From positions 1 through 64,000 of the forward strand of contig CANRFM010000010.1 of NCBI GenBank assembly GCA_947629905.1: a DNA stretch of 64,000 nt. The letters run 5' to 3'. The notes under the pieces were generated by a model. The model saw only the letters and a program-made list of their open reading frames with translations, did no database searches and was not told the DNA's origin. Source of the stretch: an uncultured Clostridia bacterium (GTDB taxonomy: Bacteria; Bacillota; Clostridia; Oscillospirales; Ruminococcaceae). A program made the translations under genes and the position numbers. Below, piece by piece: positions 282 to 3,035 of the stretch. Position 1 is the first letter of the stretch. Every line of letters starts with the position of its first letter.

Positions 282-1292
282 TTGGCGGGCAAGAGCAAGG
301 ACACTGTCACAAAAGAGTATATGCAGGACAATGAGACGTTCGCAGATGTGTTCAATTTCATGCTGTATGACGGACAGCAGGTCATACAGCCTCAGCAGCT
401 CAGACAAATGGACACGACACTGATTGCACTCCCCTATGGCAGGGAAGGAACGCTCGAGCCGGTACAAAAGTACAGAGATGTCGTCAAGGTACTGACTGCA
501 AAGGAAGACGGCAGCACGGCATACTTGTTGCTGGGTGTAGAAAATCAGTCGGATATTCATTACGCAATGCCGCCCCGCAATATGCTGTACGATGCACTGC
601 AATATGTCCGGCAAATAGAGGAAGCGGCAAAACTGCACCGCAAGCAAAAGGACAGACCGGAGACAGGTGCGGAATACATTTCCGGTTTCTATCGGTCGGA
701 CAGATTGCTTCCTGTGATCACGCTTACCATTTATTTTGGTGCTGAAAAATGGGATGCGCCCAGAACGCTGCACGAGATGCTTTCTGTCCAAGATGAAAAG
801 ATCCTGAAATTTGTTCCGGATTACCAAATGAACCTGATCGTCCCGGCAGAGATCGCAGATGCGGATTTTGCAAAGTTCCACACCGAGCTGAATATTGTCC
901 TGAAATATATCAAATACTCAACGGATGCAAGGAAATTGATGCAGGTCGTCGAAGAAGATGCCAAGTACAGAAATGTTTCCAAAAGAACTGTGAACATGGT
1001 AAGTACGGTTACCGATTCACAGATCCGCTATACAGAAAGAGAGGAGAGAGTTGATATGTGTAAAGCACTTGAAGATTTAAGAGCCGAAGGCATGGCGAAA
1101 GGCAGAGCCGAGGGCATGGAGAAAGGCATGGCTAAGGGCAGAGCCGAAGGTATGGCTGAAGGCATGGCTAAGGGCATCCTATCAACATTGACCGATCTGG
1201 TAAGGAAAGGGCTGCTCACCATTACGCAGGCTGCGCAACAAGCAAATATGACGGAACAGGAGTTTGTGGAGAAAGCTGGACTGAAGCAGTAA
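282..1292 (+). CDS. Rpn family recombination-promoting nuclease (Transposase_31/YhgA-like)
   Basis: A 336-residue protein read from TTG at 282, placed 8 bases after the Shine-Dalgarno TGAGGGGG. The N-terminal two-thirds matches the Rpn/YhgA-like PD-(D/E)XK nuclease family: a KYRDVVKVL segment near residues 64-72, then LLLGVENQSDIHYAMP, which contains the E-x-Q signature, then a LPVITLTIYFGAEKWDAP strand. Rpn proteins are DNA endonucleases linked to recombination and phage defence. From about residue 259 the protein changes to tetrapeptide repeats of the form (M/R)A(K/E)G, then a helical tail ILSTLTDLVRKGLL. A strong internal ribosome-binding site and ATG at 1056 divide the gene at exactly this point. 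The family assignment is firm; nuclease activity is inferred. Confidence 0.85.
   Translation: MAGKSKDTVTKEYMQDNETFADVFNFMLYDGQQVIQPQQLRQMDTTLIALPYGREGTLEPVQKYRDVVKVLTAKEDGSTAYLLLGVENQSDIHYAMPPRNMLYDALQYVRQIEEAAKLHRKQKDRPETGAEYISGFYRSDRLLPVITLTIYFGAEKWDAPRTLHEMLSVQDEKILKFVPDYQMNLIVPAEIADADFAKFHTELNIVLKYIKYSTDARKLMQVVEEDAKYRNVSKRTVNMVSTVTDSQIRYTEREERVDMCKALEDLRAEGMAKGRAEGMEKGMAKGRAEGMAEGMAKGILSTLTDLVRKGLLTITQAAQQANMTEQEFVEKAGLKQ
1056..1292 (+). CDS. Internal in-frame ORF: probable Rpn small (antitoxin-like) product
   Basis: ATG at 1056 is in frame with the Rpn gene (codon 259) and is preceded at 7 bases by AGGAGAG (1042-1048) inside a longer GA-rich tract. It would give a 78-residue protein made of (M/R)A(K/E)G tetrapeptide repeats followed by a conserved helical tail. 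In described Rpn systems a small protein made from an internal start inhibits the full-length nuclease. Here the internal signal is better than many true starts in the window, and the same signal recurs in a second, free-standing copy. Translation from this start is inferred. Confidence 0.55.
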   Translation: MCKALEDLRAEGMAKGRAEGMEKGMAKGRAEGMAEGMAKGILSTLTDLVRKGLLTITQAAQQANMTEQEFVEKAGLKQ

Positions 1293-1670: not shown

Positions 1671-3035
1671 TTATAGGGCTTCTTTGAGCCGCTGTAGAAG
1701 CACCGAAGCAATATCGCTTGTGCTCACCTCTCCGGAGACACGGTCTTCAATGACAATGCAGAATGCCACCGGAAAATTGGGATCGTTGACGAAGCCCGTC
1801 AGCAGTGAATTTTCCTTGTCGCCGTTCTCCACCTGCGCCGTGCCGCTTTTGACACCGACTTCCGTACCGGGCAGCAGACCGGCGTAATGTTCCCGTCCGT
1901 TGTCCAGCATGATCTCCCGCACCTCAGAAGCTGTCTGTGCCGCAAACATGTTCGTGCCGTATGCCGTCTGCGCTTGTGCGGTAATGGTGCCTTTCACGTC
2001 AGTTGCGTGGTCGATCAGGTGCGGCAGTGTACACGTGCCGGTCTGGTTGGCAATGGCACTTTGCCAGACCATGAGCTGAAGCGGACTGGCGAGCGTTTCG
2101 CCCTGCCCCATGCACCCCCATTGGGTGTTGAAATCCCTTTTGTCTGTCAGCGTGGTCGAAGCCGTGTAGGCACTGATGCCGTTGATGTCGAAGTACCCCT
2201 GTTCGCCCTCTTCATTGACCCGGTAGCCCATTCGCTTGTAGAAGTTTTCGATGTTGTCCAGTGTCCAGCCATTGTCCTCTACAAGCTGTGCAAAGAACGG
2301 GTTGCAGCTATTGGCAAAAGCCTGCACAATGTCCTGTTCCCCGTGTCCGGCAGCATGGTGACAGCGGATGACCTCTCCGGTCAGGTTCGTGTAACTGCCC
2401 GCACAGGAAAACCGTTTTGCCATGACCGCATCATAACCCATTGTTTCGAGGGCTGCGGCGGTGGTTGCGATCTTTTGTGTTGAGCCGGGCACAGTCGGGT
2501 AAAAGACCTTGCACAGCAGACTGCCCGTTTCGAGGGTTTCCAAGTCGCTGTAGTGGTTGAGAATGTTCACACTCGGCTTGCTCAGACAGACGTAAATTTC
2601 ACCTGTCACGTAATTATAGGCGACCGCACAGCCGTTTTTCCTGCCGAACGCATCATAGACTTTCCGGTTGACAGCGTGGTCGAGCGTGCAGTAAATGGCA
2701 GCCTTGCCGTCCTGCTGTTCGCCGAGCAGAAAGCTGAAATTCGTCAGCAGCCCCTTGTTCTGCGCTACGATCGTATTCGTCATCTGCCGGGAGTCATCGC
2801 CGATGAGATTTCCCACGTCCAGAAAATGATCTGCCCCATACGTTTCGGCAGAAGCCTTCGGGTCAAACAGCACATCCCCTTTCCGGTCATAGACCAGCCC
2901 GAGCGAAGCATTGTCCGAGTGGGAAATATAAAAGCTTGCCTCCGATTGCAGTTTGTAGATCAGAACCCCGAACAGAACCAGAAACAGCAGCAGCATGATC
3001 GTGATGAGGTGCTGCCCTCTGCGGATGCTTTTCAT
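1671..3035 (-). CDS. pbpA: Class B penicillin-binding protein (PbpA/FtsI-like transpeptidase)
   Basis: A 454-residue membrane-anchored D,D-transpeptidase that cross-links peptidoglycan outside the cell. One N-terminal transmembrane segment spans about residues 10-28. All three catalytic motifs are visible: S185-T-Q-K188 (SxxK, nucleophile Ser185), S243-C-N245 (SxN) and K396-S-G398 (KSG in place of KTG). There are no PASTA repeats and the dimerisation domain is short, as in PbpA-type enzymes paired with RodA. The ATG overlaps the stop of the upstream rodA as ATGA, so the two are translationally coupled. Such enzymes work as SEDS-PBP pairs. The exact PBP class name (PbpA versus PBP2) is a judgement. 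Confidence 0.9.
   Translation of the reverse strand: MKSIRRGQHLITIMLLLFLVLFGVLIYKLQSEASFYISHSDNASLGLVYDRKGDVLFDPKASAETYGADHFLDVGNLIGDDSRQMTNTIVAQNKGLLTNFSFLLGEQQDGKAAIYCTLDHAVNRKVYDAFGRKNGCAVAYNYVTGEIYVCLSKPSVNILNHYSDLETLETGSLLCKVFYPTVPGSTQKIATTAAALETMGYDAVMAKRFSCAGSYTNLTGEVIRCHHAAGHGEQDIVQAFANSCNPFFAQLVEDNGWTLDNIENFYKRMGYRVNEEGEQGYFDINGISAYTASTTLTDKRDFNTQWGCMGQGETLASPLQLMVWQSAIANQTGTCTLPHLIDHATDVKGTITAQAQTAYGTNMFAAQTASEVREIMLDNGREHYAGLLPGTEVGVKSGTAQVENGDKENSLLTGFVNDPNFPVAFCIVIEDRVSGEVSTSDIASVLLQRLKEAL

Follow-up and report, generated by a model that had tools for sequence, protein, structure and literature searches.

In Escherichia coli, RpnL is described as a toxic DNA endonuclease, and RpnS, its separately translated C-terminal domain, forms a two-and-two complex with RpnL and blocks it (Zhong et al., PMC10327210). 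According to the same study, RpnCS with one added repeat no longer counters RpnC, and the reverse also holds; phage defence is published there for RpnP2; and the clostridial rpn gene of C. difficile, to which we liken the present gene by description, makes RpnS when cloned in E. coli. Downstream copies of the small gene, repeat variation, and intragenic RpnS have likewise already been published for E. coli rpn (PMC10327210).

We analyzed an rpn-like locus at one end of a 64,000-nucleotide stretch of DNA from an uncultured Ruminococcaceae bacterium (hereafter, the window; coordinates refer to it, and features lie on the + strand unless stated otherwise). The locus has in common with E. coli RpnL/RpnS a PF04754 nuclease, an internal start at the C-terminal module, the D..ExQ active-site pattern, a three-helix small product, and variable 4-amino-acid repeats 8 to 20 residues after the Met, whereas RpnL of the window belongs to a diverged clostridial branch outside TIGR01784. 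As in E. coli RpnE/YpaA (RpnES) and rpnC/rpnCS, the small gene recurs as a second, free-standing copy immediately behind the first, and the repeat lengths of the two copies differ (by +1 in K-12 rpnE/ypaA); the arrangements differ in being of separate origin, with each downstream copy derived from its own upstream gene (PMC10327210). Furthermore, the window copy has two units fewer, unlike that of K-12, and the two units appear to recombine in the sister genome. We consider it likely that a conserved start at 1056 yields a 78-residue RpnS from the tail of a predicted toxic RpnL; the product of the duplicate at 1323 to 1535 is predicted to fit that toxin poorly. The original prediction of an Rpn gene with an intragenic RpnS antitoxin gains support from the conservation of the start column, the D..ExQ pattern, the three-helix module, and the 4-amino-acid repeats, all of which point to such a system by analogy with E. 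coli.

The rpnL-like gene (282 to 1292) encodes 336 amino acids from a TTG start with a Shine-Dalgarno (SD) energy of -12.6, and its product is predicted to be a PD-(D/E)XK nuclease toxin with a C-terminal RpnS module. It is preceded by a promoter-like site (232 to 260) composed of TTGACA, a 17-nt spacer in which TG precedes the second hexamer, and TATAAT, which agrees with the consensus at 12 of 12 positions and is the sole promoter-like match in positions 1 to 1700; the closest relative, genome G035, carries the same sequence upstream of its rpnL, both hexamers included. The window protein scored 26.7 bits against PF04754 (Transposase_31), above the gathering score of 21. Besides, D66, E87, and Q89 were invariant across 30 aligned homologues, and their order and E-x-Q spacing are those of D63, E82, and Q84 in RpnA, as taken from its published description. 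The full-length protein did not reach the cutoff of the TIGR01784 model, its AlphaFold2 model found no match at an E value of ≤0.001 with Foldseek, and a PDB sequence search returned one row only (E value, 0.62). The three pattern matches in a scan of viral contigs contained no relative. Two further candidates were rejected: NCBIfam matches to FliH (flagellar) fell on the G/E/K repeats far below the cutoff and were regarded as composition matches, and a weak PADLOC match to a "putative invertase" (C3a178; E value of 0.0016 for the full protein) sits on the C-terminal repeats.

As for the surroundings, an antisense open reading frame (ORF; 1028 to 1540) mirrors the repeats, and a weak terminator-like stem-loop lies 3' of both genes (1652 to 1667). 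Terminator-like sites numbered 2, against 1.3 expected by chance, and the stem-loop is at most a hint. Judging by their translations, the genes downstream of the rpn locus resemble cell-wall genes, and the ORF convergent with the locus (1671 to 3035, - strand) looks like a penicillin-binding protein. The open frame at the contig end (1 to 195) looks like the tail of a transposase, and a Pfam search of this frame gave no match; at its place G035 has instead a pilus-retraction-ATPase-like gene.

Within the frame of the ORF at 282 to 1292, the SD sequence AGGAGAG (1042 to 1048; -9.1 kcal/mol) and the ATG at 1056 to 1058 are present as originally described, and the frame from 1056 to 1292 has the claimed length of 78 residues, constituting an rpnS-like reading frame for a predicted antitoxin. 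The start codon corresponds to M259, the first residue of a long C-terminal helix (residues 259 to 308; AlphaFold2, mean pLDDT of 86.7), which is followed in the model by helices 314 to 320 and 325 to 332. In this model, the ATG does open the C-terminal helix, whereas the repeats, which had been placed at the ATG itself, start only with codon 9 of the small frame (1080). The first helix contains eight 4-amino-acid units (1080 to 1175; RAEG MAKG RAEG MEKG MAKG RAEG MAEG MAKG), and the predicted small product fits the published form of RpnS, with a long first helix, a helical bundle, and repeats 8 to 20 residues after the Met.

The internal SD had also been held to be better than most start sites in the window, but it is about as good as that of an ordinary gene start: among 47 long ORFs, the first start codon has an SD that equals or surpasses it in 11, and 23 have a start with such an SD within their first quarter. 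Of 339 in-frame internal ATGs of these ORFs, 5 have an SD at least as strong as -9.1 kcal/mol. Protein-preserving codon shuffling of the window rpnL gave an equal SD in 19% of trials (P = 0.19), because the RpnL protein is rich in E and R under the SD; the window gene alone is therefore suggestive rather than proof, and a family-wide test decides. The five ATG codons inside the repeats (1092 to 1166) stand behind GAAGG-like stretches with SD energies from -2.1 to -6.4; a ladder of shorter antitoxins started there is conceivable, but we do not favour it. Transcription starts internally as well in rpn genes of E. coli, whereas a consensus scan of positions 1 to 1700 found no second promoter-like site ahead of 1056, although such scans miss many promoters.

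The original account ended at 1292, and, while its intragenic unit stands, it missed a duplicate of 1056 to 1292 lying immediately beyond. This free-standing rpnS-like gene (1323 to 1535; 70 amino acids) has its own ATG and its own SD, AGGAGAGAGG (1308 to 1317; -9.1 kcal/mol), and its homology to the intragenic unit starts at the SD. A 24-nt gap in the alignment leaves it with six repeat units (1347 to 1418), two fewer than in the intragenic unit. One extra G ahead of GTTGATATG breaks the upstream frame, and a TAG lies upstream at 1299, so that the free copy cannot be read on from the nuclease.

The closest relative, G035 (88% protein identity), has a free copy at the same place. The free copies of the window and G035 share a TGA stop and the flank, whereas the intragenic copy of G035 keeps a TAA stop; the duplication is therefore likely to be older than the split of the two. 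In G035, other sequence interrupts the free copy inside the repeats, where the contig breaks, and the SD of this copy is -4.5, against -9.1 in the window, implying that the free copy is dispensable in that lineage. The insert that splits it (L003, 2585 to 2660, and L016, 1 to 71, at the end of contig C9 and the start of contig C8) has ends that look like inverted repeats and a short target duplication, and both contigs break inside the insert. Over the 113 nt after the repeats, the free and intragenic units of G035 are identical, whereas the intragenic units of the window and G035 differ at 6 of 113 positions, as do the window's own two units, which suggests gene conversion in G035. Thus, G035 cuts both ways: its copies recombine, yet this lineage can do without the free one.

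Free RpnS copies were found behind 6 of 60 non-redundant RpnL genes with at least 350 nt of downstream sequence (the window, L050, L070, L123, L133, and L155), and L163 (an ortholog of L155) and G035 supplied two more in lineages already counted. The number of repeat units in the free copy minus that in the intragenic one was -2 in the window, -2 in L050, +1 in L123, -2 in L163, -7 in L155, and 0 in L070; counts by eye gave -1 in G035 (with the duplicated target counted once) and about -3 in the repeat region of L133, behind which other changes follow. Repeat length hence differed in five of six lineages, and the matching copies of L070 are 98% identical in DNA and therefore recent. The free copies of genomes G275 and G1159 (L163 and L155) have a common 3' end peculiar to the free copy, and their repeat numbers are six apart.

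In E. coli, ten rpnE-ypaA pairs, representing six (at most seven) distinct length pairs, gave differences of +1 (K-12 and two others), -2, -3, -3, -4, -4, -4, and -8 units. Length also differed in five of five rpnC pairs, in which the free copy was the shorter by 10 to 32 residues; since 10 and 14 residues do not make up whole repeats, those copies have diverged further. All 15 E. coli pairs thus differed in length, in a non-random sample in which free copies were preferred and which came from 30 listed of 5371 and 30 of 5390 records. In 4750 of 5426 E. coli genomes, some locus covers 80% or more of the query used for rpnE/ypaA, a count that takes in single-copy forms. The three single-copy E. 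coli rpnE genes that were fetched (L179, L180, and L181) have a 3' end typical of the free copy, which would fit either copy loss by crossover (fusion) or an ancestral state that was never split. Since independent variation also makes matches rare, the E. coli values oppose enforced matching but not drift, and neutral drift is a serious rival as the source of the repeat mismatch.

If the locus works as E. coli Rpn does, RpnL would be a toxic DNA-cutting nuclease, RpnS would inhibit it by binding through the shared helix module, and the number of 4-amino-acid repeats would decide which pairs of RpnS and RpnL fit. As the toxin tail and the intragenic antitoxin are encoded by one stretch of DNA, these two would always be matched, with eight repeats each. 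The six-repeat free product would then fit the adjacent eight-repeat toxin poorly, and the free copy may be an antitoxin with a different specificity, may recombine with the toxin tail as its partner, or may do both. Given that one added repeat abolishes neutralisation in the published case, length-mismatched free copies are predicted to be non-cognate, and by this analogy we favour, with modest confidence, a second-specificity or donor role over an extra dose. In CDI/Rhs polymorphic toxins, orphan modules of displaced specificity are kept 3' of the active toxin gene and can serve as recombination donors. The likeness to the rpn locus is one of outline, and no homology is claimed; in the rpn locus, a single module doubles as antitoxin and as the tail of the toxin itself. 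A wider extension, namely, that free RpnS copies are spare specificities that confer immunity to Rpn toxins of other lengths and act as crossover cassettes, by which a single crossover gives the toxin a new repeat length and its intragenic antitoxin changes with it, so that the two stay matched, is put forward tentatively, and as stated we think it unlikely.

The free copy may instead merely raise the dose of one and the same antitoxin, if a change in repeat number is too minor to make it non-cognate. Consistent with this, the SD of the free copy is as strong as that of the intragenic site, the divergence of the window pair is mostly synonymous, and the L070 copies are matched in repeat length; moreover, E. 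coli YpaA is made, and the published repeat rule was tested for one toxin, with overexpressed proteins (PMC10327210). An extra dose accords poorly, however, with the length differences in most lineages and in every E. coli pair given above, and with the reported loss of blocking on the addition of a single repeat (PMC10327210). We regard it as possible, although rather doubtful.

Alternatively, the free copy may be a functionless by-product of tandem duplication that is drifting, its repeat number being shifted by slippage. The interrupted G035 copy with its weak SD would be expected of such a remnant, as would the presence of a free copy behind so few RpnL genes (6 of 60), and repeat tracts are described as unstable (PMC10327210). 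Outside the repeats, however, the two units of the window differ by 7 synonymous and 3 non-synonymous changes, whereas drift of the free copy alone would give about 12 non-synonymous ones (P = 0.002, a value that ignores the error in the synonymous rate). Furthermore, the free copies of G275 and G1159 differ outside the repeats by 3 synonymous and 0 non-synonymous changes, and SD and ATG are retained. We therefore doubt this explanation too, without discounting it.

The preferred reading, translation of RpnS from the internal start at 1056 in addition to the free copy, was assessed across the family. Homologues were drawn from the genus (38 genomes, 12 with a match at an E value of ≤0.001), the family (396 genomes, 20 at ≤1e-8), the order (394 genomes, 2 at ≤1e-20), and the class (391 genomes, 11 at ≤1e-20), each of these draws including the window's own genome, as well as from two other genera (with matches at ≤1e-15 in 7 of 11 genomes of one and 2 of 8 of the other) and from 54 named loci. 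ORFs at an E value of ≤1e-10 in which the site was preceded by 100 codons or more and flanked by 60 nt in both directions gave 90 usable intragenic sites, which were reduced to 63 non-redundant ones at 80% identity. Three weaker rows under the E cutoff (L041, L021, and L018) were looked at separately, together with L113 and L020.

The start column of the 63 homologues contains ATG in 56, GTG in 5, GTT in 1, and GAA in 1, that is, ATG or GTG in 61. Valine at this column is GTG in all five Val-GTG rows, which are partly non-independent (L112 and L124 come from one genome), and the further Val row, L113, has GTT with an ATG one codon before; at other positions of these ORFs, GTG accounts for 392 of 1252 Val codons. 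The SD energy averaged -9.6 at the 61 sites, whereas codon shuffles that preserve the protein averaged -6.99 and the 558 in-frame ATGs elsewhere -2.42. Along the ORF, the mean energy was strongest at the start column and its two neighbours. An SD of -6 kcal/mol or stronger was found at 58 of the 61 sites and at 50 of the 558 other ATGs; the three weaker sites include L050, at -4.5. The SD was stronger than the mean of its own synonymous shuffles in 55 of 61 cases (P values of 1.1e-7 by Fisher and 3.7e-10 by Wilcoxon, both optimistic because the sequences are related), with 12 of 61 sites individually below 0.05. The residues under the SD vary (EE, KE, KG, GG, ER, and EG) and the SD persists; since it is spelled via different residues, constraint on the protein alone is insufficient as an explanation.

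The five rows without a start at the column (L113, L020, L041, L021, and L018) each have an internal ATG further upstream, at a distance of one to about 15 codons (one in L113 and seven in L020), with an SD of -10.8 to -12.4. Thus, in the relatives on which the original prediction had staked the internal SD, the SD is kept apart from the three weak sites, and both exceptions among the 63 have a strong start nearby. We take the internal start to be near universal in this Rpn branch, and from these sequence comparisons we infer that it is used for translation. The SD and ATG might otherwise merely follow from the conservation of an E/K/G-rich peptide and of the MCKA motif, with no separate product, as the frequency of equal SDs among shuffles of the window gene would allow. 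This is very unlikely given the excess over shuffles in most homologues, the use of GTG for the start-column Val, and the persistence of the SD under changing residues, and the free copy, which is out of the nuclease frame, keeps both SD and ATG.

Several observations concern the module elsewhere. L018, L020, L021, and L041 are Rpn-like but of other subfamilies; their similarity to the window lies chiefly in the C-terminal module, and each has a strong internal start of its own a few codons upstream, as if this module moved between nuclease types. At L130 (518 to 3357; G275 C111), three tandem RpnL genes have tails that differ mainly in repeat number, each with an internal SD and ATG. In the Rpn genes L007 (212 to 1042) and L014 (1465 to 2402), a stop or a change of frame disrupts the nuclease part, and the C-terminal module is still recognisable. 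The window's own genome has, at L185 (G000 C16:50910-51056) and L184 (G000 C38:248-481), a 68-amino-acid orphan frame that resembles TIGR01784 at its C-terminal end, and a further, incomplete frame that is Rpn-like; neither reaches the family cutoff.

That the window gene is a transposase or recombination enzyme rather than a toxin-antitoxin gene, as its Pfam name (Transposase_31) and the rise in RecA-independent recombination reported on overexpression of E. coli Rpn (PMC5350276) might suggest, is highly improbable in view of the later study, which found neither terminal repeats nor target duplications and described toxin-antitoxin behaviour for E. coli Rpn (PMC10327210).

We found no further RpnL/RpnS study among the literature matches listed, in which a 2025 review (PMC12707154) mentions Rpn twice, and no statement, in the available main text of PMC10327210, that free copies and the genes beside them are mismatched in repeats. 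New here is the predicted intragenic-antitoxin Rpn in a diverged clostridial branch, the mismatch being the fresh part. The comparative evidence, namely, start-codon swaps and an SD held through changing residues, extends intragenic antitoxins independently of expression data, and it suggests a simple genome-search rule for such internal products. Furthermore, it raises the testable question of why the repeat number of a second antitoxin copy is so often one that, under the published rule, should not suit the adjacent toxin; the answer would show how a toxin and its antidote can change specificity together.
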